Source: Nitrosomonas oligotropha (GTDB lineage: Bacteria; Pseudomonadota; Gammaproteobacteria; Burkholderiales; Nitrosomonadaceae). Taken from it: a stretch of 64,000 nt of DNA. Positions within the stretch are counted from its first letter, which is position 1, and every line of letters begins with the position of its first letter. The position numbers and the translations under genes are program-made. Positions 6,357 through 53,241 of this stretch are shown here, piece by piece. The notes under the pieces are model-generated. The model was not told where the DNA came from. It made no database searches and worked only from the letters and a program-made list of their open reading frames with translations. The stretch is taken from the NCBI RefSeq assembly GCF_900106555.1, contig NZ_FNOE01000012.1, positions 1 through 64,000 on the forward strand, in the 5' to 3' direction.

Positions 6357-7154
6357 ATGTCCGCCAAAGCGATCATAAAACTGATCGGAGAGAACGCTTA
6401 TCGCCACGACCGATGGAGAGTGTTCAGCGATTTCGTGCAATTGTCCGCGTTTGCGATCAGCAATGCGGTCGATATGCGCAACCGTGATGCACGAGAAAGC
6501 GAATATATGCGGATTATCGGTCAGTACAGCAAGGATGAAGCAAACAGATTCCCCATGATGCTGGCAGAGTTGGTGAACGGACTTGAAGATGGAATGGCGG
6601 ATGTGCTCGGGCAGGTTTATATGGAGCTGGAATTAGGTAACAAGGATCGTGGCCAAGTATTTACGCCTTATTCGCTATGTCAGGCGTCTGCAAAAATGGT
6701 ATTCGATAAGCCGCACGTTGATTCAATCATCGCCGACAAAGGTTATATAAGCATGCAGGAGCCAGCAGCCGGGGGTGGCGCGATGGTAATTGCTTTTGCT
6801 GAAGTAATGAAAGAAGCGGGAATCAATTACCAACAGCACCTGCATGTAACGGCGACAGATGTGGATATCAAGGCGGCTTGTATGGCTTATGTGCAATTTT
6901 CATTGCTCCATATCCCAGCTACGGTCATTCACGGCAATACGCTGTCGCTGGAAGAATGGTCGCGCTGGTACACGCCAGCTCACATCCTTGATGGTTGGAG
7001 CATACGGCTGAGATCAAAAGCGCAAAAACCGGAATTGATTGAACCTGAAACACAGATTCATCAAGTTACAGAGGAATTGGTAATTACCGAAGAGCCAGTG
7101 CCAATCCCAATTGCAGCAAAGAAACAAGAAACAGTTCAGTTATCACTTTTTTGA
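6357..7154 (+). CDS. N6-adenine methylase-like protein with sliding-clamp motif
   Basis: A 265-residue protein resembling the N6_Mtase domain of type I modification subunits: GQVFTPYSLCQASAKMV (target-recognition/FTP block), EPAAGGGAMVIAFAEVM (SAM-binding motif I), TATDVDIKAACMAY (motif II acidic loop) and HGNTLSLEEW (the GDTL position). The catalytic (D/N)PP(Y/F) motif expected after GDTL is absent; the chain goes to a variable tail. The last residues are QLSLF, a canonical beta-sliding-clamp binding pentapeptide. It may bind SAM and the replication clamp without methylating, or use a non-standard active site. It lies between recT-like and ATPase genes in the same operon, with its stop just before the next gene's ribosome site. 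Confidence 0.65.
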   Translation: MSAKAIIKLIGENAYRHDRWRVFSDFVQLSAFAISNAVDMRNRDARESEYMRIIGQYSKDEANRFPMMLAELVNGLEDGMADVLGQVYMELELGNKDRGQVFTPYSLCQASAKMVFDKPHVDSIIADKGYISMQEPAAGGGAMVIAFAEVMKEAGINYQQHLHVTATDVDIKAACMAYVQFSLLHIPATVIHGNTLSLEEWSRWYTPAHILDGWSIRLRSKAQKPELIEPETQIHQVTEELVITEEPVPIPIAAKKQETVQLSLF

Positions 7155-7165
7155 GGAGAAACACA

Positions 7166-7861
7166 ATGAACGACTTCAGACAAATGACTGCGGAAACGGC
7201 AGGTAAGGATTTGCTAGGTGCACTGGTTACCGAGCTCAAACTTTTGCCGGATGTGTGGCAAAAGCTTTCAAAAGCCAAGCAAGATGATGTAATCGACCGG
7301 CTGCGCAATCGAATGGAAGAAAACGTGAAGATGGTTGTATTCACCATCGCATCGCAGAACAGAACGACTGTTGCCGGTAGCTTGGACAAAGTAACCATCA
7401 AGGGAAATGTTGAAGCGGTAATCAAGTTTGGGATCAATGCAGGGAATTTGCCCGAGCTTTTCGCCGCGGCAGCTGATCAGGATAGCAGAACAGTCCTGGT
7501 TGTCGTTGCTGATCCTGCGGCTCACACGCAAGGCATGGATGAAGTTCAGGGAGAAAACGACCAGCGCGCCATGGATTTAGGGCACGAATACCACGATAAC
7601 GACGGCGGAGGAATTGAAGGCGCATCCGATGTTGACCCAAACACCGGAGAAATTAAAGGATTACCATCGCCAGATCAGGTAAAACCAACCGATGAAGAAT
7701 TGGAAAAAGCTTTTGATGACGGTTACCAAGCAGCGCAAGAAGGCAAGCCGCAAAGCGACTGCCCGATCATCCGTAGCGAATTGGTTATCGAGTGGGTGAA
7801 AGGCTGGAAAGCATGGCATGAAGAAAACGCCGAAACCGCTGAAGAAGTGGAGGTTGAGTAA
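7166..7861 (+). CDS. Hypothetical phage protein with C-terminal RMF-like domain
   Basis: Start placed at the ATG after GAGGAG, giving 231 residues. The N-terminal 85 residues are helical (KDLLGALVTELKLLPDVW), the middle is acidic and probably disordered (a VDPNTGEIKG linker), and the C-terminal 45 residues carry FDDGYQAAQEGKPQSDCP and WVKGWKAW. That spacing of GYQA, CP and WxxGW is the hallmark of ribosome modulation factor. So the protein looks like an N-terminal domain of unknown function tethered to an RMF-like module. The downstream ATPase gene starts three bases after the stop. Function unknown. Confidence 0.62.
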   Translation: MNDFRQMTAETAGKDLLGALVTELKLLPDVWQKLSKAKQDDVIDRLRNRMEENVKMVVFTIASQNRTTVAGSLDKVTIKGNVEAVIKFGINAGNLPELFAAAADQDSRTVLVVVADPAAHTQGMDEVQGENDQRAMDLGHEYHDNDGGGIEGASDVDPNTGEIKGLPSPDQVKPTDEELEKAFDDGYQAAQEGKPQSDCPIIRSELVIEWVKGWKAWHEENAETAEEVEVE

Positions 7862-41528: not shown

Positions 41529-43301
41529 ATGACAGATTCTTCAAAGAACACGCAAACCCGCTGGCAGAGCATCAAAAAAGCAGCGCAGTTTATCGCGCCG
41601 TACCGCCGCCAGGTCGTTTATAGTTTGCTGGCGTTGTTATTCACCGCCACGATTACACTGTCGATCGGGCAAGGCATCCGGTTGATGATCGATCAGGGAT
41701 TTGCCACACAATCCAAAGAACTGCTCAGTCAGTATGTCGGCATATTTCTGCTGCTGGTAATCGCTTTGGCTGTCGGCACGTTCACACGCTATTACTGGGT
41801 CACCTGGTTAGGCGAGCGAGTGATTGCCGACATTCGAAGTAAAGTATTCAACCATCTGATCCATCTGCATCCCGGCTTTTTCGAGGAAAACCGCAGTCTC
41901 GAAATCCAATCGCGTCTGACTGCCGATATGACGTTACTGCAAACCGTGATCGGCTCATCGGTATCGTTCGCACTGCGCAATTTGATCATGATGGTTGGCG
42001 GCATCGTCTGGTTATTCATCACCAACGCCAAGCTGACTGCGCTGGTGACGATTTGCGTGCCGCTGGTGGTAGTGCCGATCTTGATTTATGGCCGCCGCGT
42101 GCGGCATTTGTCGCGCCAAAGCCAGGACAAAATCGCCGCGGTCGGCGCTTATGTCGGCGAAGTGCTGGGGCAAATTAAAACCGTGCAGGCCTACAATCAC
42201 CAATCCATCGATCAGCGTACCTTTCACACTCAGGTTGAGGAAGCTTTCGCCGTCGCCAAGCAACGCACGCTGCAACGTTCATTGTTGATCACCCTGGTTA
42301 TTTTGCTGGTAATGGGTGCCGTCGGATTGATGCTGTGGGTCGGCGGTATCGATGTAATCGAAGGCCGGATCAGCGCGGGCGAATTGGCCGCATTTGTTTT
42401 CTACAGCGTCATTGTCGGCTCAGCCGTCGCTTCCATTTCGGAAGTCATCGGCGAATTGCAGCGCGCCGCCGGTGCCGCCGAGCGCACCATGGAATTGCTG
42501 CAAGCGCCGAATCTGATTCAGTCGCCGGAAAAATCCCATCCCCTGCCCAGCGTATCGGGAAATATCGCTATCGATCAACTGTGCTTCGCTTACTCTTCCC
42601 GCCCCGATGTGCTGGCCATCGACAATCTGACCTTGACGATCCGGGCAGGCGAAACGCTGGCGCTGGTCGGTCCTTCCGGCGCGGGCAAGTCGACGTTGTT
42701 TGATTTGCTTCTGCGTTTCTTTGACAGTCAATCCGGCTCTATAAAACTGGAAGGTATCGATATCCGGCAGCTCGATCTGTTTGCCCTGCGCCGCTGCTTT
42801 GCGCTGGTATCGCAAACCCCGGCGTTGTTTTACGGCACCATCGGCGACAATCTGCGCTACGCCCGACCCGACGCCAGCGACGCGGATGTACAAGCGGCAG
42901 CCGAAGCAGCCTACGCGCATGAATTTATCTGCCAATTACCGCAAGGCTATCAAACGCATTTGGGAGATGCCGGATTAGGATTGTCAGGCGGGCAGAAACA
43001 GCGGCTGGCGATTGCCCGGGCGATTCTGGCAGATGCACCGATTCTGTTGCTGGACGAAGCCACCAGTGCACTGGATGCACAGAGCGAATATTGGGTGCAG
43101 CAAGCATTGCAGCAGCTGATGCGCAATCGAACTACGTTGGTCATTGCACATCGTCTGGCCACTGTACAATCCGCCGACCGGATTGCCGTGCTCGATCACG
43201 GACGGCTGGACGCGATCGGCACGCATGCGCAATTGCTGCAATCCAGCCCGTTGTACGCACGGCTGGCGGCGTTGCAGTTTCAGTCACTCGTTATTGACTG
43301 A
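41529..43301 (+). CDS. MsbA-like ABC exporter (half transporter)
   Basis: A 590-residue fused permease-ATPase. Six spans lie in the first 310 residues; the ATPase carries GPSGAGKSTLFDLL (Walker A), LSGGQKQRLAIARAIL (signature), ILLLDEATSALDAQ (Walker B) and VIAHRLATVQ (switch His). It works as a homodimer to flip lipids or export drugs; MsbA-like lipid flippases are the nearest comparison. Its last 18 bases overlap the convergent hpnG-like gene. Confidence 0.92.
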   Translation: MTDSSKNTQTRWQSIKKAAQFIAPYRRQVVYSLLALLFTATITLSIGQGIRLMIDQGFATQSKELLSQYVGIFLLLVIALAVGTFTRYYWVTWLGERVIADIRSKVFNHLIHLHPGFFEENRSLEIQSRLTADMTLLQTVIGSSVSFALRNLIMMVGGIVWLFITNAKLTALVTICVPLVVVPILIYGRRVRHLSRQSQDKIAAVGAYVGEVLGQIKTVQAYNHQSIDQRTFHTQVEEAFAVAKQRTLQRSLLITLVILLVMGAVGLMLWVGGIDVIEGRISAGELAAFVFYSVIVGSAVASISEVIGELQRAAGAAERTMELLQAPNLIQSPEKSHPLPSVSGNIAIDQLCFAYSSRPDVLAIDNLTLTIRAGETLALVGPSGAGKSTLFDLLLRFFDSQSGSIKLEGIDIRQLDLFALRRCFALVSQTPALFYGTIGDNLRYARPDASDADVQAAAEAAYAHEFICQLPQGYQTHLGDAGLGLSGGQKQRLAIARAILADAPILLLDEATSALDAQSEYWVQQALQQLMRNRTTLVIAHRLATVQSADRIAVLDHGRLDAIGTHAQLLQSSPLYARLAALQFQSLVID

Positions 43302-44045
43302 TCTGCTCTCGCTTAATTCGGCATCACGATAAGGCATGTAGTCACTTGCGAAAGTCAATCCCGTTTTTTGCACGACTTCCGTTAAAGCATAGCGCGCTAC
43401 GTGCATCCCGAGTGCGAGATGGATCAACGTCACGATTGAGACCGATCGGTTAAGCACCAATTTAATGAGCTGAATGGCATCCACGCTGCCATCGGGATAT
43501 ACCGCGCCCATCAATGCCTCCGGCGGCGAAAATTCGAGCGGATCGACAATCGCCCGGATAGCGAGAAACGAAATGCCGGCATCGGCCGCCACTTTCGCCA
43601 CTGCCGCCGATTCCATATCCGCCGCGCAAGCCCCGGTAGCCTCACCCAACGCCAGTTTTTGCGCGCGGGTAGTGAGCGGTGCTTCACAGGACGTCAAGAC
43701 TCCACTCGTAACCGTAACATGCTTTGACATTATGCCGTGCAGCCGGTCGCGCCATTCCATGTCCACCGGTAGGACCTCACCGTCCATCATAATCGCTTCG
43801 GGCAACACCAAATCACCGGGAATTAATTTGTCATCCAATGCCGCAGCCACACCGAAACTGACTAAGGCATTAATGTTTTGCCCGCACAATTTCAACGCCG
43901 CTCCGCGCGCCGCGCTACTTCCTATGCTACTGAGACACAACGAGGTTCTATCCCCTATATCCACCACTTGATAAAGAGGAAAACGTTTATCCACCAAACA
44001 GCTTGCTTCTGACTTCAGTGCCGTAACAACTCCAATAATCTTCAA
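43284..44045 (-). CDS. HpnG-like nucleoside phosphorylase, second copy
   Basis: A 253-residue member of the purine nucleoside phosphorylase fold. Motifs GVVTALKSEASCL, LVSFGVAAALDDKLIPGDLV, TGACAADMESAAVAKVAADA and AIRAIVDPLEFSPPEALMGA match the intact copy at 50549-51247 closely. The start is assigned to TTG 44045, which follows GGGGGG and aligns with the GTG start of the other copy; an upstream ATG (44114) lies inside a remnant of shc. HpnG releases adenine from adenosylhopane. Two paralogues allow divergence; the active-site region is intact. Confidence 0.75.
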   Translation of the reverse strand: MKIIGVVTALKSEASCLVDKRFPLYQVVDIGDRTSLCLSSIGSSAARGAALKLCGQNINALVSFGVAAALDDKLIPGDLVLPEAIMMDGEVLPVDMEWRDRLHGIMSKHVTVTSGVLTSCEAPLTTRAQKLALGEATGACAADMESAAVAKVAADAGISFLAIRAIVDPLEFSPPEALMGAVYPDGSVDAIQLIKLVLNRSVSIVTLIHLALGMHVARYALTEVVQKTGLTFASDYMPYRDAELSESRSVNNE

Positions 44046-44061
44046 TTGAAAGCCCCCCTTA

Positions 44062-44230
44062 TCAAGGCATAATAACGCGCCAGCATCGTATTGGAAAGAA
44101 TTTTGCATGATCATAATAACGCAAATTGAACGCGCGCGGATTCACGCCTATAAGAATGTACTGCTATTGACACTACAGCGGCGATCGGACTTCTGGGAGT
44201 ATCAGCGGATTGATTGATGTGTCAGCATTA
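44062..44230 (-). pseudogene. Decayed 3' end of a second shc gene
   Basis: On the minus strand the sequence reads NPRAFNLRYYDHAKFFPI and, after a one-base shift, MLARYYALIRG, against PRVFYLRYHGYSKFFPIWAL and ARYRALTRT at the end of intact shc. At nucleotide level GGATTGATTG, GCAAAT, AAGAATTTTG and TAACGCGCCAGC are kept in order. It has frameshifts and extra bases and cannot be translated. Its position directly upstream of the second hpnG copy copies the shc-hpnG order, so the whole locus was once duplicated. Confidence 0.8.
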
Positions 44231-44473: not shown

Positions 44474-45208
44474 TTATTTCTGAGTTTCAATGCCTTGCTT
44501 ATGATTCAAAAAGAAACTTCTTCTACTGATTTCCTGAACCCATTGCTTAGCCGGAATGATGGGGGAGAACATAATCAATCCCAGTATGACTGGAATAATT
44601 AATCCCAAACAAACGGCCAGGATCCTTAGCGCAATATGCCACGGAGATACCGCGTCAGGATCAACACCGACATGCAGTGGAATTCTGAGTATATTTTCTT
44701 CGGTCATCGTATTTTCTTCCCCAACTGAAAGGTATAACGCGTAAAAACCCTCTTTGTCCAGTTCGATATGCGTCTCGACCATACCCCGCGGGTACAGCTT
44801 GGCCGGTACTTCAAAAATGGTGCCGGTATCCTTGAAGTTTTCCACTTTCCTCTCATCCTCTCCAATCAGTTCTTGTTTAACCAAGCGAACACTGATGGGT
44901 GTTTCCCTTACGTCTTCGTCAACCAGATCTGCGGTAAAGTAAAGTGAGCCCGTTTTGGGGATTTTTTTACAATAGGATCGTAACAATTTATTTCTATCTT
45001 TCCCTTTTATATTCTCCAGATCGCCTTCGGGCTTCAGATAAGCACTGAAATAAATCGCATATAAATCATTGGTGACGAGGCAACCTACCGTTTCGGTATA
45101 GTCAAATTGCACGGAGGCGGTTACATTTTTCTTGCTGCAGGCAGGTAACAGCAAAATGCTGCCGCATAATAGAATCGTTAATAACTGTTTGGTAGTGAGT
45201 GATTTCAT
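44474..45208 (-). CDS. Lipoprotein with C-terminal membrane helix
   Basis: A 244-residue protein. The signal ends in LLLPACSKK, a lipobox, so the N-terminus is lipid-anchored. About 170 periplasmic residues follow with YFTADLVDEDVRETPISVRL and GFYALYLSVGEENTM, then a membrane helix (HIALRILAVCLGLIIPVILG) and a short basic end. The double anchoring, lipid plus helix, is uncommon. It is the last gene of the TonB-receptor operon, 42 bases after copC. No family recognised. Confidence 0.7.
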   Translation of the reverse strand: MKSLTTKQLLTILLCGSILLLPACSKKNVTASVQFDYTETVGCLVTNDLYAIYFSAYLKPEGDLENIKGKDRNKLLRSYCKKIPKTGSLYFTADLVDEDVRETPISVRLVKQELIGEDERKVENFKDTGTIFEVPAKLYPRGMVETHIELDKEGFYALYLSVGEENTMTEENILRIPLHVGVDPDAVSPWHIALRILAVCLGLIIPVILGLIMFSPIIPAKQWVQEISRRSFFLNHKQGIETQK

Positions 45209-45250
45209 AATGTAGTGCGCTCCTATCGATAAGGAATATGGGTATTGAAA

Positions 45251-45643
45251 CTAGTCGGATTCCGCAACAGTAAAATCAAATTTGCCAGAAACCGCGTGTG
45301 TATCCGCCGATATCACCCGGTACCGGACGGTGTAAGTATCCGGAGGGAGTCGCGGAATGCTGATATAGATATGCGATGGATCCAGTATTTCCTGTTCAAT
45401 ATCTTTGTTATCCACACGCTTTCCTGCACTATTCATCACGGCAAGCGATTTGAAAGCACTCCTGACATGCTCGTTAAACCAGACATCCACTTGCTTCGGT
45501 GATTTGCTAATGGTGCTGTCTTTTTCAGGCATCGATTTCACCATGACAGCATGCGCGAGAGCGGCTTCCGGTAAGATTGAGAAAGTAATAAAGAACAAAC
45601 ACATCAGTAGATTCATTGAAAAAAAGATACTGCAACGTGCCAT
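45251..45643 (-). CDS. CopC-domain copper-binding protein
   Basis: Start at the ATG with AGGAGAAAACGCT upstream gives 130 residues. After a signal peptide (FSMNLLMCLFFITFSILPEA, cleavage ALA), the mature protein begins HAVMVKSMPEKDSTISKSPK. The N-terminal His and the later ISADTHAVSGKFDF (Asp-x-His) form the Cu(II) site of CopC. The fold is complete but no CopD gene is adjacent. Within this operon it could bind copper in the periplasm for uptake or for safe handling. Confidence 0.88.
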   Translation of the reverse strand: MARCSIFFSMNLLMCLFFITFSILPEAALAHAVMVKSMPEKDSTISKSPKQVDVWFNEHVRSAFKSLAVMNSAGKRVDNKDIEQEILDPSHIYISIPRLPPDTYTVRYRVISADTHAVSGKFDFTVAESD

Positions 45644-45690
45644 AGCGTTTTCTCCTGTAAAAATATTGTCGTAGCAATCCGCACTGTTCA

Positions 45691-46983
45691 TCATTCAAAA
45701 ACATACCAAGCCAATTCACTGGAATGCTGATTGTTTTTTTCCGTCCATAGGGCTAAAAATCCATGTTTTGTGGCCACTAATTTGGGTTGCGTTGCGGAAT
45801 ACTTTGCTTCGGTTAGTCGTTTAGGCACTGACCAGGTCGTGCCGCCATCTTCTGATTTCGTGTAAAAAATACTCGCTCCATCCGGTTCCATTTCATTCCA
45901 AATGGCCGCAACAGCATTGCGATTGCGCGCCGCAATATCGCCATGCATAGCCATACTTCCGAGTTTCCGGGGAATCGACCAGGTTTGGCCGTTATCGTTT
46001 GAAGAGAGATGATATAAACCGGATTTGTCTTCAATACCGGTCCAAACAACGCTGTGCAGTTGAGCGATATTGTCTGTGCCAGCATATTTTAAAGCGCCGC
46101 CAACATGCGGACAGCCTTCGAATTTCCATTGAAAATCACCGACTGTGCTGGCGTGCCGCCAGGTTAATCCCGCATCGAGCGATTGCGCCAGCGACATGTC
46201 GCGAGGTGCGGTATTGCGATAAAGAACAGCGAGTTTATTGTCAGGTGACACTGTCACTGTGTTCCAACAGCATGAGCACGTGGAGTCATCCAAAGTAACC
46301 GGCTGACTCCACTGTTTACCTTGGTCAATCGACCGGGCATAGTGCAAACCTTGGTAACCATTTTCATTAGGATCCGCCAGCCAAACCGCATGAAAGTTGC
46401 CTTTCCAGTCAGCAACCACATCGATGTGAGCCTGGCTACCGTCATTGTCCATGGCCGGATTGGCGCCTCTTTTCCAGGTTTGGCCAGCATCCGCGGAATA
46501 AGCGCTGACCATCGGTCCCATCGTCGGGAACTCTCCTTCAGTTTGCCACAGTGATACCAAATGGTTACCGTCAGCCGCCAGCTGAACATCGTTTCCACGG
46601 CTGGCCAGTGCGGCAGGCAACGACTCATTTACAGTCACCGGACTTTTCCATTGACGCCCGCCATCTTCAGAACGTGTATAGCGAATCGAGCCATGCTTAT
46701 TATGGGCAACGCATTTTCCGCTCGCGATGAGGTGGATAGTTTCTTTGTCCACATAAACGTCGAATGATGAAATATCGTATAAACCCAGCGTCGATTTGGC
46801 ATAAACCGTATTGTTTGCCGGATTGAGTGTGGTATTTTCCGGCACCTCCATGCTCAGCACCGGCCCCGGCGAGCAGCTAATAATCATTAAGCTGATCTGG
46901 CAAACTACTTTCAGGGAAACAATCAATCCGTGTTTTCTTCCGGATTGCATGTCATTGGTCATTGCGTACATCCACTGTTTCAA
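45691..46983 (-). CDS. Exported Asp-box (sialidase-like) repeat protein
   Basis: A 430-residue protein with a signal-like N-terminus (GLIVSLKVVCQISLMIISCS). At least six Asp-box motifs S-x-D-x-G-x-x-W appear: SEDGGRQW, SADAGQTW, SIDQGKQW, SLDAGLTW, SNDNGQTW and SEDGGTTW, giving a six-blade beta-propeller. Two unusual cysteine clusters, STCSCCWNTVTVS and FEGCPHVGGAL, could bind a metal or form disulfides. Although similar proteins are often called exo-alpha-sialidase, the operon (TonB receptor, TlpA, CopC) suggests a role in metal handling. Start could be the internal MTNDM or MQSGR. Confidence 0.75.
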   Translation of the reverse strand: MKQWMYAMTNDMQSGRKHGLIVSLKVVCQISLMIISCSPGPVLSMEVPENTTLNPANNTVYAKSTLGLYDISSFDVYVDKETIHLIASGKCVAHNKHGSIRYTRSEDGGRQWKSPVTVNESLPAALASRGNDVQLAADGNHLVSLWQTEGEFPTMGPMVSAYSADAGQTWKRGANPAMDNDGSQAHIDVVADWKGNFHAVWLADPNENGYQGLHYARSIDQGKQWSQPVTLDDSTCSCCWNTVTVSPDNKLAVLYRNTAPRDMSLAQSLDAGLTWRHASTVGDFQWKFEGCPHVGGALKYAGTDNIAQLHSVVWTGIEDKSGLYHLSSNDNGQTWSIPRKLGSMAMHGDIAARNRNAVAAIWNEMEPDGASIFYTKSEDGGTTWSVPKRLTEAKYSATQPKLVATKHGFLALWTEKNNQHSSELAWYVFE

Positions 46984-47474
46984 TTCAGGAGTACCTTGAA
47001 GATATTGTTATAGTCCTCCTTGGATAACGCGCCGCTAATGCCATGGCGTTCATGATTCTTATTGATGAAGTAGGTTCTGGGTAACTCGCCATACCATTTA
47101 GGATCAATCTCATAGCGCAATTTTTGTGCATTTTCTTCGGTAAAAATCCAGTGCTCCAAATTGGTCAATTCGTTTCTCGCCAACACGGTTTGGACTAAAC
47201 CGGTTGCTGAGGCATCGTCAGCGGATAGCATCACGATATTGATTTCCGGTCTGCTTTTTGCCAGATCATGCAGCAGTGGCATTTTCTTCATGCATGATGA
47301 ACAGGTGGTCGACCAAATAACCAGCATGAAAGGTTTATCCGCATTGCTATCAAGCAATCTCTGATAACTGCCGGGAGTAAAAGGTTTGAGTTGCACCTGC
47401 TCAGCTCCGGCCGGTAACACAAAACCGGATGACAAAATGAGTGTGCATAGTAAAAAGATTTTTCTTAAGGTCAT
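46980..47474 (-). CDS. Exported TlpA-like thioredoxin-fold protein
   Basis: A 164-residue protein with a signal peptide (KIFLLCTLILSSGFVLPAGA) and a thioredoxin fold. The active site is WSTTCSSCMKKMPLLHDLAK (C-S-S-C), and GELPRTYFINKNHERHG holds the cis-proline region. Periplasmic TlpA/ScoI proteins keep metal-binding cysteines reduced or assist copper insertion. Overlaps the Asp-box gene by four bases, so the two are coupled. The CSCC clusters of that neighbour are candidate partners. Confidence 0.85.
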   Translation of the reverse strand: MTLRKIFLLCTLILSSGFVLPAGAEQVQLKPFTPGSYQRLLDSNADKPFMLVIWSTTCSSCMKKMPLLHDLAKSRPEINIVMLSADDASATGLVQTVLARNELTNLEHWIFTEENAQKLRYEIDPKWYGELPRTYFINKNHERHGISGALSKEDYNNIFKVLLN

Positions 47475-47518: not shown

Positions 47519-50263
47519 TTAAATTTTCAATGTGAAGCTCAAGCGGAAACTCACCGGTTCTACCGGATGAAAGTGAAAATCCCTTACGCCGTCAGCTGAT
47601 TCACCGGGCAGCCGCGACGTATAAAAATAAGTGATCGCAGGATCGTTACGATCGAGCATATTGAACACCTCGGCCTGCAAGCTTAATTTTCTGTTGACTT
47701 CATAACCGAGCATGGCAGACAGCAGAATCGTGGAATCCGAGCGTCTACTGTTGTCTTCGACTAAAGGCCGCGGCCCTAAGAAACGTAACCGGGGGCCACC
47801 GAAAAAACCGCCAAAAACATGATGAAAAGTCGCGCCGGTTGCAACTACGGCCTCGACCGAATTCGGCACATAATTACCTTCATCCGGTACTTTATTGCGG
47901 AAACGTGCATGGGAGAAACTGACATCGGCGTCAAAGGTCAGCCAGTCCGTCGGCGAATAGTAATTTGCAAACTCAAGCCCGTAGCGGCGGCTAGGACGGC
48001 TGGCCTCCGTCGTGCCGGCATCCCCGACAAATAGCAGCTCCGAGTCAATATCCAGCCACCACAACGCCAACGTGCTTTGCAATCCTTTAATCCGCACCAT
48101 GCGTGCACCAACCTCCGCGCCGTAAGTACGGACCAGCGGATCGGCACGCCGAACGGAATCACCACTTAGCGGATCGATGCGGGTGTTGATGCCACGCGCA
48201 TCGTTGCTATGAAACCCAAGACCGCCATTCAGATAAAACTCGGTATCCGCCCAAGGTCCGAGAACCATGCCAAATTTAGGGCTGACCAAGCCATCGTAGC
48301 GTTCGCCCATGTTTTGTCTGATATTGCTGCGATCAACATCAAAGCGGAAACCGTCGAAACGTAGCCCCAAACTGGTGCGTAACCAGTCCGTCCAGGTCAG
48401 CTTGTTTTCTGCGTACGGACTGATACTGGTTACCCATAGGGTATCCTGGCGCGTGATGCCGGTTCTTCTTTGCGCATGCGTTCTGGTCAGTGCGTTGTGA
48501 ATATTATCGTTACGCACTTGCAAGCCGAAGGTGGTTTCCGAATCAACAGAACCGATGGTGTGAAAAATCGTATGGCTGCCTTTGAAGCCGGTTGTCCAAC
48601 GATCATCCGGTTGGCCGAATTGATCGCCACATGTATTAAAAAGAGCTGGATTGAATTGTCTCCCTGAATCCAATCCAGTTAAACCGGCACAACCGGCAAG
48701 GTTGGTGTGCTCATTGTCATCCAGAAAGAATGTGAAGTTTGAGAACAGACTCAGCTTGGAATTCACCCCGTAAACCATTAACTTGGTGATACTGTTCTCC
48801 CCCCGGTGATGCCATTCACCGGTCAGACTATAACGCTGGCTGCTGCCGCCATCGGTAGGATCGAGCGCATCGAAGCGGCCGATGATGCCTTGTTGAAGCG
48901 CGCGCCTGGCAATCTGATCGGTCGCTTTCCAATCGGACTTCGTGGCCATGGCAGTTACACTCCAGCCATGATTGCCATACTCCTGGCTGTATCGCAACAG
49001 ACCGTTAAACTTCAAATAATCGTTGCCAACCGTCCACGGGCCATTGTTGTGCACGATTTCTCCCGCATACAACAAATTACCTGTTCCTAATGCGCGGGAA
49101 CTGGCGATCAATCCGCGGTAATAATCAAAGCTGCCTCCCGTGAATCTGACCATGGTTTCCGGCAGCTTTTTAAAATAGCGGATATTGGCCGAACCGGTAC
49201 TGGAAAAATCTCCATTCTCGGCATAGTGAATGCTTTTTTTGTATTCCAGCGTTTCGATCAGCTCAGGGATGAGAAAATTGGTATCCGTCCAGCCTTGTCC
49301 GTGGGAATGCGATAATTGATTGACCGGCACGCCTTCAATCTGGGTTAGAAAATCGGTGCCGTGATCGAGATTGAATCCACGTAGAAAAAATTGATTGGCT
49401 TTACCTTCGCCGCTGTGCTGTGTGGCAATCATACCGGGAATGGTTTCCAGCACTTCCGCCGGGCGCGTAATCGGCCGGAATTTGATCTGGGCTTGCCCCA
49501 CGTTACCTTGAGAAGCGCTGTCAGCGATACCTATCATTGAATTGGCCCGCTCAGTCACGCGCATCTCGTTGAATACCACCAATTTTGCTTTGCCGCTTTC
49601 AGGCTTAATTTCCGTCATCGCCTTCGGGGTCGCATTGATCAATTCAGCAGCTTCTTGAGCTTGCACGTTGTTACCGACGGAAAAGGCCAATGCCAATACC
49701 ACTAATCGTGCAATCAGTATGCCGGTCCCGTGCAGTAGCAAGGTGGCGAATACAAATCCGGCGGTATAGGAAATCAGACTGGCGGAAGCCGATATTTCCT
49801 GGCCATGCGCGTAGCCATGAAAAAAAGCAAAAAGCGCGATAATCAGAATATTAAACGAGGCGCTAAATTGAATTTTCCGGATAACGAATACGTTGAGTAG
49901 CAGAACGGACAACAGAATGATGTTTTCGGTATAAGGTAGTGCGATGTCCACTGCACCGGCAAATCCGCCAAGACTCATGACGCTGGCAAATACCAGGGGT
50001 AATACCCAGACAGCTTGCCCGCGCGATTGCGCGGCCCATATTCCCACCGCAATCATGGTCAAAATATGATCCCACCCTTCCAATGGATGATGAAAACCGT
50101 CGTGCCAATCACTGTTAATGACAAGCATCATTGCTGGGTTTTGCGGCAGGAAAAAAGATAACAGCATGAGTGATCCGAATGCGAGGATCATGGTCGATCG
50201 TTTCTCATATTTTTGAGTAACTTGCGGCATCTGCTTGAGATTTGAGCTAAAGATAATTGCCAT
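47519..50263 (-). CDS. Fusion of HupE/UreJ permease and TonB-dependent receptor
   Basis: A single open frame of 914 residues from the ATG at 50263 (TTG 50314, ATG 50230 and ATG 50191 are alternatives). The first 200 residues form a HupE/UreJ-type permease: HHPLEGWDHILTMIAVGIWA (59-78), FFHGYAHGQE (147-156) and ATLLLHGTG (173-181), across about six spans. The next hydrophobic stretch ends in NNVQAQE, which looks like a signal-peptidase site (after about 202). From about 240 a TonB receptor follows: plug domain with PGMIATQHSGEGKANQFFLR and GFNLDHGTDFLTQIEGVPVN, then a 22-strand barrel ending in a typical aromatic/hydrophobic FRLSFTLKI. HupE-type proteins move nickel or cobalt. No internal start with a strong ribosome site is seen at the junction. 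Confidence 0.82.
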   Translation of the reverse strand: MAIIFSSNLKQMPQVTQKYEKRSTMILAFGSLMLLSFFLPQNPAMMLVINSDWHDGFHHPLEGWDHILTMIAVGIWAAQSRGQAVWVLPLVFASVMSLGGFAGAVDIALPYTENIILLSVLLLNVFVIRKIQFSASFNILIIALFAFFHGYAHGQEISASASLISYTAGFVFATLLLHGTGILIARLVVLALAFSVGNNVQAQEAAELINATPKAMTEIKPESGKAKLVVFNEMRVTERANSMIGIADSASQGNVGQAQIKFRPITRPAEVLETIPGMIATQHSGEGKANQFFLRGFNLDHGTDFLTQIEGVPVNQLSHSHGQGWTDTNFLIPELIETLEYKKSIHYAENGDFSSTGSANIRYFKKLPETMVRFTGGSFDYYRGLIASSRALGTGNLLYAGEIVHNNGPWTVGNDYLKFNGLLRYSQEYGNHGWSVTAMATKSDWKATDQIARRALQQGIIGRFDALDPTDGGSSQRYSLTGEWHHRGENSITKLMVYGVNSKLSLFSNFTFFLDDNEHTNLAGCAGLTGLDSGRQFNPALFNTCGDQFGQPDDRWTTGFKGSHTIFHTIGSVDSETTFGLQVRNDNIHNALTRTHAQRRTGITRQDTLWVTSISPYAENKLTWTDWLRTSLGLRFDGFRFDVDRSNIRQNMGERYDGLVSPKFGMVLGPWADTEFYLNGGLGFHSNDARGINTRIDPLSGDSVRRADPLVRTYGAEVGARMVRIKGLQSTLALWWLDIDSELLFVGDAGTTEASRPSRRYGLEFANYYSPTDWLTFDADVSFSHARFRNKVPDEGNYVPNSVEAVVATGATFHHVFGGFFGGPRLRFLGPRPLVEDNSRRSDSTILLSAMLGYEVNRKLSLQAEVFNMLDRNDPAITYFYTSRLPGESADGVRDFHFHPVEPVSFRLSFTLKI

Positions 50264-50291
50264 TATCTTCTTAACCCAAGAGGGTACGAAA

Positions 50292-50322
50292 GTGACAAAT
50301 TGCCACAGCGGCAATTTGTCAC
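50292..50322. promoter_or_regulatory. 13-bp perfect inverted repeat upstream of the fusion gene
   Basis: GTGACAAATTGCC and GGCAATTTGTCAC are separated by ACAGC, about 30 bases before the fusion gene's start. The size fits a dimeric regulator site or a stable hairpin in the 5' leader. The outer halves GTGACA and TGTCAC are reminiscent of spaced metal-regulator sites, but no specific regulator is asserted. The rest of the gap to the hpnG gene (50323-50548) has no visible gene. Confidence 0.6.
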
Positions 50323-50548: not shown

Positions 50549-51247
50549 TCAGGCCAACCCTGTACCGGCGGATTGAATAACCTTTGATAAAGTTTTGCGT
50601 GCCGCACGCATACCGGCACCCATTTGCAGCAATGTACCGATACGAACCGAGCGTTTCAGCAGCAATGCCGTGAGGCGCAGCGGATTCACGCCGCCATCGG
50701 GATACACGGCACCGAGCAATGCTTCCGGTGGGGAGAAATGAACCGGATCGATAATGGCGCGCACGGCGATGAACGGAATACCTGCTGTCGCTGCCACATG
50801 CGCCACGGCGGCGCTTTCCATATCCACCGCACAGGCGCCTGTTGCTTGCGCCAGATTTCGCTTGGCTTTTTCATCCGTCAGCGGCACGGCACTGTCCGCC
50901 AAGCCGCCGTTGACGACGGTAATATCCGTGGGCAGTAAACTTTGCAACCGGTCACGCCATGCCAGATCAACCGACAACTGCTCACCTGCGTGTATGACAT
51001 CCGGCAAAACCAAGTCGCCTGGTTTTAGGGTCGAATCCAGCGCACCGGCAACACCAAAGCTCACCAGCGCCATCGTACCCTGTTGATACAACCCTTCGGC
51101 TGCCGCACCCGCAGCCTGCGCGCCCATGCCGCTTAACCACAAACGCGCATGGTCATTCAGCTGCACCATTTGATTGAATGGAATTCGCGCCGGTGATATG
51201 CAACTGGCTTCAGCCCGTAAGGCTGTCACCAGTCCGGTTACACGCAC
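50549..51247 (-). CDS. Adenosylhopane phosphorylase HpnG
   Basis: Start assigned to a GTG ten bases inside the shc end (232 residues); an ATG at 51292 is possible. Motifs are GLVTALRAEASCI, VSFGVAGALDSTLKPGDLVL, TGACAVDMESAAVAHVAA and RAIIDPVHFSPPEALLGAVY. HpnG phosphorolyses adenosylhopane to phosphoribosylhopane in hopanoid side-chain synthesis. It overlaps shc by 10 bases, and the start position matches the TTG of the second copy. Confidence 0.85.
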   Translation of the reverse strand: MRVTGLVTALRAEASCISPARIPFNQMVQLNDHARLWLSGMGAQAAGAAAEGLYQQGTMALVSFGVAGALDSTLKPGDLVLPDVIHAGEQLSVDLAWRDRLQSLLPTDITVVNGGLADSAVPLTDEKAKRNLAQATGACAVDMESAAVAHVAATAGIPFIAVRAIIDPVHFSPPEALLGAVYPDGGVNPLRLTALLLKRSVRIGTLLQMGAGMRAARKTLSKVIQSAGTGLA

Positions 51248-53241
51248 GCGGCGACTGTTCTGGTCAGCGCACGGTAACGCGCCAGCGCCCATATCGGGAA
51301 GAATTTTGAATAACCGTGATAGCGCAAATAGAACACGCGCGGGAAGCCAGGCGCGGTAAACCAAGGATCTTCCCACAAGTGATCGCTGGATTGATTGTGC
51401 AACAGATAATTAATTCCTCTGCGAACCGACTCGCTGTTGACTTCACCCGCTGCCATTAAGCCCAATACAGCCCAAGCGGTCTGGAATGCCGTGCTGGTTT
51501 CGGGAAACCGCCCCGCCAGCTGCTTATCCAAATAAGAATCATTGGTTTCGCCCCAGCCGCCATCGGCTCTTTGCACCGATTCCAACCACTTCACGGCGCG
51601 GCGCACCGAGTGGTGTTGCATATCGAACTTGGCCAGCTGGAAAGCTTCCAGCACTGACCATGTGCCATAAATATAATTAGTGCCCCAGCGCCCGAACCAG
51701 GAACCGTCTTGCTCCTGTTCGCGCAACAAAAAGCTGATGCCGCGCCACACTTCGAGCTGGTGTCTGCCGTATTTTCCCAGCAAACCGACACAACGCGCGG
51801 TCACATCGCTGGTAGGCGGATCGATCAGAGCGCCATGATCGGCGAAAGGAATTTCATTCAAATAGTGATGCGTGTTATCAATATCGAAAGCAGCAAAGCC
51901 GCCATTACGCGATTGCATGCCTGCCAGCCAATTGGCCGCGCGCTCCAAGGATTTGTGATGCCGCTCCGCGCCACCTTGATCCAATGCCCATGCTACAGCG
52001 GCTGTATCGTCCAGATCCGGATAGTGCGGATTAGCGTACTGAAATGCCCAGCCGCCGCCCAACAATTCGGGGCGTTTGTCGCGCCAGTCGCCCGGCTCGT
52101 CCAGAACCTGCTGTTCAACCAGCCAATCCAATGCTTTCAATACCGGCTCCTGACCGGTGGTTGGATCTTCCTGCAATGCCAAGCTGGTCAATACCGTATC
52201 CCATACCGGCGATGTACAGGGCTGACACCAAATGCGCTCGCCTTCATCGACCAGCAATCCACGCAGCGCGTTACGGCATTGCACCCGATTGGGGTGATCA
52301 TAGGCATAGCCCAACAACGTCAATGCTTCATGCGCATTGACCATAGCCGGGAAAATCGCACCAATACCGCATTCGCCATTCAGACGTTCAAGCGTCCAGC
52401 GTTCCGCTTTGCGGATCGAATATTGCCGGATTGATTGCGGCAGCTTCGGCTCCACACGCGACAGAATACGCTCAACCAGCATAAACGCACGCTTCAGAAC
52501 GGTATCCGCTCTGGGAAAATAATTTTTTTCCTCTTCCGGCGGCACGATAAACAATTCGCGAATATTCACTTTACGCGGATTGATCGCGCGCGCTTTCATG
52601 GTGCACAGAATAGATAGCGGTATCATCACGGTACGTGACCAGTACGAAACTTTGCTGATATGAAAAGGAAACCAGCTTGGCAACAGCACCAGTTCCGACG
52701 GCACCACCGGCACGCCATGCCACGGGATCTGATCGTACATGGCTAGCAACAAGCGCGTGAACACATTGGCTTTGGCAGCACCGCCACGTTCCATAATAGC
52801 TTCCCGTGCACGTACCATGTGCGGCGCATCAGTCGAATCTCCCACCAGCTTCAACGCATAATACGACTTGATCGTGCAGCTGATATCAAACGCGCCGCCA
52901 TAATAGAGCGGCCAGCCGCCGTGCGTCATGTCCTGCTTGTCACGGATAAAACGGGCGATCTTGTTTTCCAAAATCACATCGATCTCATCCATGAAGTGCA
53001 TCATTAAAATATACTCGGCCGGAATCGTGCAATCCGCTTCCAATGGAAAACACCAGTGTCCATCCGGATTTTGTAACGCCAGCATGGCTGAGCGAGCTTG
53101 GTTAAACTTCGTTTCCAGCTCGGCGGTGTTGATGCCATCCTGATTCAGGGTTGTTGCCGTATCCGATTCAGGGGTTTCACCGTTAACCGTAAAATCACTT
53201 TGTTGCTGCGATAGATTCGCTACTCTCTGAAGTCCGTCCAT
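51238..53241 (-). CDS. Squalene-hopene cyclase
   Basis: A 667-residue class II triterpene cyclase that folds squalene to hopene. The protonating motif DLDDTAAVAWAL (DxDD) lies near residue 400. QW repeats are seen as LQNPDGHWCF, MQSRNGGFAAFD, QEQDGSWFGRW and VQRADGGWGET. The N-terminal 40 residues are polar. The enzyme sits on the inner membrane. Next to hpnG, it shows that the organism makes extended hopanoids. No promoter was identified in the 140 bases upstream. Confidence 0.95.
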   Translation of the reverse strand: MDGLQRVANLSQQQSDFTVNGETPESDTATTLNQDGINTAELETKFNQARSAMLALQNPDGHWCFPLEADCTIPAEYILMMHFMDEIDVILENKIARFIRDKQDMTHGGWPLYYGGAFDISCTIKSYYALKLVGDSTDAPHMVRAREAIMERGGAAKANVFTRLLLAMYDQIPWHGVPVVPSELVLLPSWFPFHISKVSYWSRTVMIPLSILCTMKARAINPRKVNIRELFIVPPEEEKNYFPRADTVLKRAFMLVERILSRVEPKLPQSIRQYSIRKAERWTLERLNGECGIGAIFPAMVNAHEALTLLGYAYDHPNRVQCRNALRGLLVDEGERIWCQPCTSPVWDTVLTSLALQEDPTTGQEPVLKALDWLVEQQVLDEPGDWRDKRPELLGGGWAFQYANPHYPDLDDTAAVAWALDQGGAERHHKSLERAANWLAGMQSRNGGFAAFDIDNTHHYLNEIPFADHGALIDPPTSDVTARCVGLLGKYGRHQLEVWRGISFLLREQEQDGSWFGRWGTNYIYGTWSVLEAFQLAKFDMQHHSVRRAVKWLESVQRADGGWGETNDSYLDKQLAGRFPETSTAFQTAWAVLGLMAAGEVNSESVRRGINYLLHNQSSDHLWEDPWFTAPGFPRVFYLRYHGYSKFFPIWALARYRALTRTVAACV

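Follow-up and report, generated by a model that had tools for sequence, protein, structure and literature searches.

In Gram-negative bacteria, the transporters of the two membranes are normally encoded by separate genes, as their products take different export routes. Here we describe a gene within a 64,000-nucleotide stretch of Nitrosomonas oligotropha DNA (contig NZ_FNOE01000012.1, positions 1 to 64,000 of the forward strand; hereafter the window) in which a HupE/UreJ permease and a TonB-dependent receptor are joined in one open frame. Stand-alone HupE/UreJ permeases (PF04955) belong to the same Pfam family and carry the same motif residues as this fusion. Compared with them, the last helix of the fusion is a shorter, signal-peptide-like segment, which is followed by a whole outer-membrane receptor. 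The family is described, in the part of the source available, as having an HPXXGXDH signature and six helices (PMC7689651). Related receptors are found close to nikR, HoxN, hyp or hydrogenase genes on plasmids of Cupriavidus (pHG1), Afipia (pHCG3), Methylomagnum and Bradyrhizobium and are 40-43% identical over plug and barrel; unlike the fusion, they are genes of their own with no attached permease. Split hupE-receptor pairs of other Methylococcales comprise the same two families in adjacent or overlapping genes, but differ in that HupE has a C-terminal extension of roughly 100-350 amino acids and the receptor, by eye, its own signal peptide; some have a receptor of a distant branch.

A precedent for the arrangement is FbcH, the cytochrome b/c1 precursor of Bradyrhizobium, in which an inner-membrane protein comes first and an internal signal peptide is cut by signal peptidase. 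FbcH differs in that both of its products stay at the inner membrane, and it is an analogy rather than kin. We found no account of this fusion in the titles and abstracts searched among freely licensed PMC papers; the parts are known, and within the literature searched the novelty is their arrangement.

The fused gene and its join

The frame of the fusion is open from 47519 to 50314 on the reverse strand, which makes 931 codons if a TTG at 50314 is counted. Several early starts are possible, and residue numbers used here count from the ATG at 50263 (Table 1). A preliminary description of the window had read this frame as a HupE/UreJ permease joined to a complete receptor, with HPLEGWDH, FHGYAHG and LLHGTG motifs and a VQA↓QE junction. 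That reading is borne out: the Pfam domains of both halves score over their cut-offs, the motifs and the junction (residues 200-204) are as described, and HPLEGWDH fits the family signature. The receptor half begins in mid-chain, and the signal-peptide-like segment is internal. In Foldseek searches the best structural match of the receptor was PqqU (TMt 0.81), with YncD and the copper receptor OprC also among the matches; YncD and PqqU were the sole matches when solved structures were searched by sequence. No match to the permease model was returned by Foldseek at E up to 0.001, and no RNA family reached its gathering score in an Rfam scan of the window. The fused copy is the sole PF04955 match of its genome at E up to 1e-6.

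Both halves look functional and under purifying selection: in ten pairs compared, the ratio of nonsynonymous to synonymous substitution rates (dN/dS) was 0.055-0.23 in the permease half and 0.045-0.20 in the receptor half. Furthermore, in an alignment of 34 rows, eight of them stand-alone HupE proteins, H59, D65, H66, H149, H153, E156 and H178 are invariant.

Searching with a stretch across the join, we found the fusion in 14 of 85 Nitrosomonas genomes (G000, G097, G070, G028, G015, G087, G010, G085, G078, G100, G066, G033, G079 and G080), with 54-92% identity over the join. G080 carries two copies, giving 15 loci in total if two pieces in G028 are taken as one. Some loci are incomplete: G087 and G085 reach a contig end after the plug begins, the start is lost at a contig end in G010, and in G028 each piece has runs of N at its edges. 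The G028 pieces (CP091134.1; L061 and L062) lie on one scaffold, one of them beside an AmoC-like gene; they overlap over about residues 66-178, differ slightly and could represent either two copies or an error of scaffolding. Remnants were also seen. G016 has a decayed copy with many stops (L075, 6900-8300, reverse strand) at the same place downstream of a PNP gene, G067 and G002 hold fragments only (those of G002 lie at contig edges and may or may not be remnants), and in G026 (L074) the receptor stands alone, its permease gone. The receptor frame of G026 is one base off an upstream signal-peptide-like stretch, at a run of A (about 7150-7500, reverse strand), an offset that could reflect sequencing error, decay or phase variation.

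The fusion is also present as one frame in the Methylococcales, where a scan of GTDB species contigs revealed it in Methyloglobulus, Methylomicrobium and Methylotuvimicrobium buryatense 5G. Of 251 genomes from this order, at least 28 have a single-frame match spanning both halves; we read the join directly in 23 of these, and two of the 28 hold one stop inside the match (TAG in G999, TAA in G1066). The frame of G1051 (L210) is short, at 485 amino acids, the receptor ending early with TlpA and BNR genes directly after it, perhaps through a recent deletion or an assembly gap. Broader samples, which partly overlap, added little. Among the frames opened after a PF04955 search of 399 genomes of the window's order, the fusion was found in the window's own genome only; some long frames were left unopened, such as a weakly matching one of 589 amino acids in G112. 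In 369 genomes of the class, only an M. buryatense genome (G719) was clear, together with a frame in G645 that the contig ends just past the same join. Across 398 genomes of the phylum, both halves stood in one frame in the window's own genome only, with one-half matches left unopened for the receptor (G312, G139, G1252) and the permease (G1296, G1097). Long HupE frames in G438, G390, G439, G470, G318, G164 and G393, all of the window's order, contained no receptor: in six of the seven, overhang into GC-rich DNA upstream accounts for the added length, and the G164 frame read has 242 amino acids. Similarly, the long frame of G673 is overhang, and that of G607 encodes a receptor whose N-terminus is long and rich in repeats. 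Orthologues that are always two separate genes, which the preliminary description had named as a refutation, are not what the search of related genomes returned. The fusion is real and conserved, not an assembly error: it is present in 14 of the 85 Nitrosomonas genomes and in no fewer than 28 of the 251 from Methylococcales.

To describe the join, we aligned 34 fusions, 12 from Nitrosomonas (the window included) and 22 from Methylococcales. Residue 202 is Ala in all 34 and is the sole invariant column among the 63 columns of residues 183-245. The -3 position (residue 200) is V in 15, A in 11, I in six and L in two, and the +1 position (residue 203) is Q in 27, E in five, and H and R in one each. 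Ahead of the site stand ten strongly hydrophobic residues (mean hydropathy 2.2-3.5), then small or polar ones; in the window the join reads ...LLLHGTGILIA-RLVVLALAFSV-GNN-VQA before the site and QEAAEL... after it. The linker that follows differs among the fusions both in sequence and in its length of 14-30 residues; it has no invariant column, and its dN/dS exceeds that of both halves in six of eight Nitrosomonas pairs, one other being not computable and one having no replacement there. Judged from the alignment, the join is a signal peptide pattern with a -3/-1 site that is kept while its surroundings drift. The predicted receptor start after the -1 Ala is QEAAELINATPK in the window and QAVADDEDSG... 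in M. buryatense, and a TonB-box-like segment at residues 230-237, kept though not invariant, lies where it would be expected after a putative signal peptide.

Loop charges point to the orientation of this segment. Lys or Arg is present in loops 79-86 (34 of 34 fusions) and 130-138 (33 of 34), rare in loop 46-58 (three of 34) and missing from loops 104-115 and 155-164 (none of 34 in each), with loop borders of our own choice; 28 of 34 fusions also have Lys or Arg at 183-187, just before the last segment. Under the positive-inside rule, the last segment would therefore run from cytoplasm to periplasm, which would place the proposed cut on the side of the membrane on which signal peptidase I works.

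We think it likely that the product of the gene is a polyprotein serving metal uptake at two membranes, with nickel the most probable metal, and that signal peptidase I cuts it. The N-terminal half would insert in the inner membrane as a HupE/UreJ permease, whose last hydrophobic segment would serve as an internal signal peptide. Signal peptidase I would cut after Ala202 on the periplasmic side, yielding a permease that ends ...VQA and a receptor that starts QE..., and the released receptor would be handled like other TonB-dependent receptors and assembled in the outer membrane. Both transporters would thus come from one message and one start site; we infer the cleavage, membrane location, metal and equal amounts of the two products from the patterns described. 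The preliminary description had suggested that one segment could be both the final helix of the permease and the signal peptide of the receptor, giving a matched outer- and inner-membrane pair for metal uptake. This proposal is supported by the conserved fusion, the invariant -1 Ala with its suitable -3 residues, the loop charges and purifying selection on both halves. If true, signal peptidase would be usable as a polyprotein processor for a matched two-membrane uptake route, and an outer-membrane receptor could be assigned to its inner-membrane permease, for nickel, in ammonia and methane oxidisers.

The likely metal of the pair

Gene context suggests that the metal is probably nickel, which is our best guess. 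In G078, G100, G079 and G080 the fusion ends a one-strand row with genes for urease (gamma, alpha, UreF, UreG), a urea transporter and carbonic anhydrase, named by Pfam in G080 and by similarity in the other three. In the window's own genome an unfused paralogue adjoins a NikR gene, and the same paralogue-nikR pair lies beyond the urease cluster in G031 and G013, next to genes that by eye are metal ABC importer-like. Relatives occur in 51 plasmid records, of which four were opened, some picked because hydrogenase was expected there; NikR, HoxN, hyp or hydrogenase genes were near the receptor in all four. Nickel is the best guess because of these urease, NikR and hydrogenase contexts and because HupE/UreJ proteins are nickel or cobalt transporters, as described in the available parts of PMC7689651, PMC4284471 and PMC2667541. 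The window organism has urease, and a NiFe-hydrogenase-family match in two stretches. Among Nitrosomonas genomes, urease is present in 12 of 14 with the fusion versus 38 of 71 without it (Fisher p 0.036), a weak result that ignores kinship.

Some observations count against nickel. The window fusion stands in a CopC-containing row and not beside urease, and in G097, the genome closest to the window, the fusion is present but urease was not matched. Nor did operators of the E. coli type (NikR consensus GTATGA-N16-TCATAC) emerge upstream of fusions: at the 21 of 25 loci scored, none had fewer than three mismatches and none was clearly above shuffles (best P 0.10). The window as a whole has 23 matches with up to three mismatches versus 21.7 expected, and a NikR operator near the fusion was dropped as a candidate. 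Among unfused receptors (19 of 20 loci scored), Afipia alone stood out, with one mismatch.

The alternative that survives best, a distinctly less probable one, is that in the window type a functional pair takes up copper or another metal in place of nickel. A row of fusion, TlpA-like, BNR, CopC and 244-amino-acid protein genes is kept in Nitrosomonas and some Methylococcales, the window's own genome has the copper enzyme ammonia monooxygenase (AMO), organisms with AMO or particulate methane monooxygenase (pMMO) are where the fusion is found, and OprC is among the structural matches of the receptor. However, the HupE/UreJ members described carry nickel or cobalt (PMC7689651 and PMC4284471, as far as the available text goes), and the receptor family sits by nikR and hydrogenase genes. 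Moreover, G080 has near-identical receptors in a CopC setting and in a urease setting, one copy each, which suggests one substrate for both. Copper was our first idea, and as the sole reading it was demoted once the urease, nikR and hydrogenase neighbours appeared. We also considered whether the fusion might be LanA, the lanthanide receptor of M. buryatense; the available part of PMC12482762 gives neither a locus nor a link to HupE.

Alternatives to the proposed cleavage by signal peptidase I

A cut in the linker by another periplasmic protease would suit a linker that is variable and modelled with low confidence, as a protease target might be, but we regard it as improbable. The -1 Ala is the sole invariant residue and is followed by Q, E, H or R, whereas the linker has no invariant column.

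We give still less credence to translation of the receptor, wholly or in part, from a start codon inside the last permease helix, the gene then being two in-phase, overlapping translation units. From residue 182 on, the join does resemble an ordinary signal peptide, and codon 184 is ATT, a rare start codon, in all 14 Nitrosomonas fusions, the set to which this analysis applies. Against this, no ATG, GTG or TTG is kept at one join position across the 14, none of them has a Shine-Dalgarno-like sequence before such an in-frame codon at the join, and the fusion at L069 lacks all three codons between residues 172 and 196.

Some observations count against the proposed cleavage. In the full-length AlphaFold model, residues 163-204 form one unbroken helix, weak after 190, and in a model of the N-terminal part the helix is unbroken over 163-210, with block pLDDT of 82-91 over 161-210. 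With one long helix, the chain does not turn where the fifth helix should give way to the signal-peptide segment, contrary to a simple hairpin; the other modelled permease helices span 64-80, 84-104, 112-129 and 135-157, and in the models the sixth cannot be told from the fifth. In addition, six of the 34 fusions lack Lys or Arg at 183-187. AlphaFold is blind to the membrane, and a 48-residue helix that contains two hydrophobic stretches exceeds the length of a single crossing; even so, the model result stands as a warning. The uninterrupted helix in both models and the same six fusions would suit a chain that is left uncut at the signal peptidase site, with the permease half a mere inner-membrane anchor or export vehicle, or with the receptor tethered across the envelope. 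This seems to us as doubtful as an internal start: the permease motif residues and dN/dS indicate a working permease, and the -1 Ala is invariant despite varying surroundings. A tether in particular is unlikely because a linker of 14-30 residues would reach about 50-105 angstrom, whereas the periplasm is about 200 angstrom wide.

An assembly or sequencing error that conceals a stop or frameshift at the join, which the preliminary description had allowed for, is refuted almost beyond doubt, because related genomes carry the same join (at the identity given above for Nitrosomonas) and dN/dS is well below 1 in both halves.

Origin of the fusion and its gene row

In trees of the permease half, the fused state needs two changes with 46 rows and three with 61. 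The 61-row tree rejects the fused proteins as one clade (p-AU 0.015) and leaves 14 fused rows out of a group of 37, itself well supported, to which all 19 unfused subfamily rows belong. A receptor tree of 39 rows requires four changes, of which starred branches force three. Permease and receptor histories differ, in that six split pairs have a distant-branch receptor and L111 shifts between the trees. If rooted on stand-alone HupE, the 61-row permease tree favours an old fusion with later splits, although with uneven inner support; one gain followed by splits and several independent gains are both possible. The receptor of the split relative L111 has a signal peptide of its own that reads ...ILALSIAIFIGSAAHAQDK, and the join of the fused relative L107 reads ...LAILSFAFFIGSNVNAQEK; in these two sequences, compared by eye, the second half of the join resembles the receptor signal peptide and the first half HupE. 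On balance, we lean towards a widespread and old polyprotein class in which a single signal peptidase cut would yield permease and receptor, and in which export of the receptor would depend on insertion of its own permease. Such a class would probably date from the ancestor of Methylococcales, have been divided into two genes afterwards in some lineages, and have been passed on to Nitrosomonas.

The C-terminal extensions of split HupE proteins of Methylococcales (L111 6998-8359, L112 6809-8254, L121, L122, L124, L128 and L147) have features of their own. Seven of the 11 read share, by eye, a motif like YFPDIN.(T/S)PG..LLSNGVGLTSPP or its end, GVGLTSPP, and no Pfam family scored over its cut-off in the six extensions scanned. 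Some last helices of split HupE end in AxA-like sites. A proline-rich motif ahead of a receptor gene recalls, by analogy, nascent-chain control of the CutF type. HupE/UreJ genes lie beside some CutF-like proteins, according to the available part of PMC9973294, and this may bear on the extensions of the split genes.

Table 1. Features of the fusion and of its gene row in the window (residues count from the ATG at 50263)
Feature	Position	Strand	Details
HupE/UreJ-TonB-dependent receptor fusion	47519..50263	-	914 amino acids from ATG 50263
N-terminal hydrophobic helix	50141..50215	-	about residues 17-41; in/after basic stretch; expected N-in
HupE_UreJ domain	49700..50107	-	residues 53-188; HPLEGWDH, FHGYAHGQE, LLHGTG motifs; PF04955, 143 bits (cut-off 23)
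Last permease helix / putative internal signal peptide	49658..49708	-	residues 186-202, R-LVVLALAFSV-GNN-VQA
Proposed signal peptidase I cut	between 49658 and 49657	-	-1 Ala and -3 V/I/L/A, each in 34/34 fusions
Hypervariable linker	49577..49657	-	residues 203-229; low confidence in full AlphaFold model
TonB-box-like segment VFNEMRVT	49553..49576	-	residues 230-237; named by resemblance only
Receptor plug domain	49199..49504	-	residues 254-355; PF07715, 42.3 bits (cut-off 23.9)
Receptor beta-barrel	47660..49009	-	residues 419-868; PF00593, 72.7 bits (cut-off 27); Foldseek to PqqU/YncD
TlpA-like thioredoxin-fold protein	46980..47474	-	44 nucleotides downstream of fusion; PF13905 just over cut-off
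BNR-repeat (sialidase-like) protein	45691..46983	-	PF13088; 4-nucleotide overlaps with neighbours
CopC-domain protein	45251..45694	-	PF04234
244-amino-acid protein	44474..45208	-	no Pfam family; by eye, the start resembles that of a lipoprotein and a hydrophobic segment lies at the C-terminus

The genes of the window row, from the fusion to the 244-amino-acid protein, are closely spaced and partly overlapping. The row is kept in eight Nitrosomonas fusion loci (the window, L059, L060, L063, L065, L069, L070 and L072), recurs at the receptor-only locus L074 and at L107 of Methyloglobulus, and is partial in other Methylococcales, both fused and split. The block from TlpA to the 244-amino-acid protein (44474-47474) is conserved beside metal receptors in Nitrosomonas and Methylococcales. 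On the Methylomagnum plasmid, CopC and sialidase-family genes are separated by about 7-8 kb from the receptor that stands beside nikR. PNP-superfamily genes at 43284-44114 and 50549-51376 flank the whole fusion row, next to a squalene-hopene cyclase gene. The same PNP-flanked layout is found at L059 and L060, where the two PNP genes are about 52% identical by cross-match.

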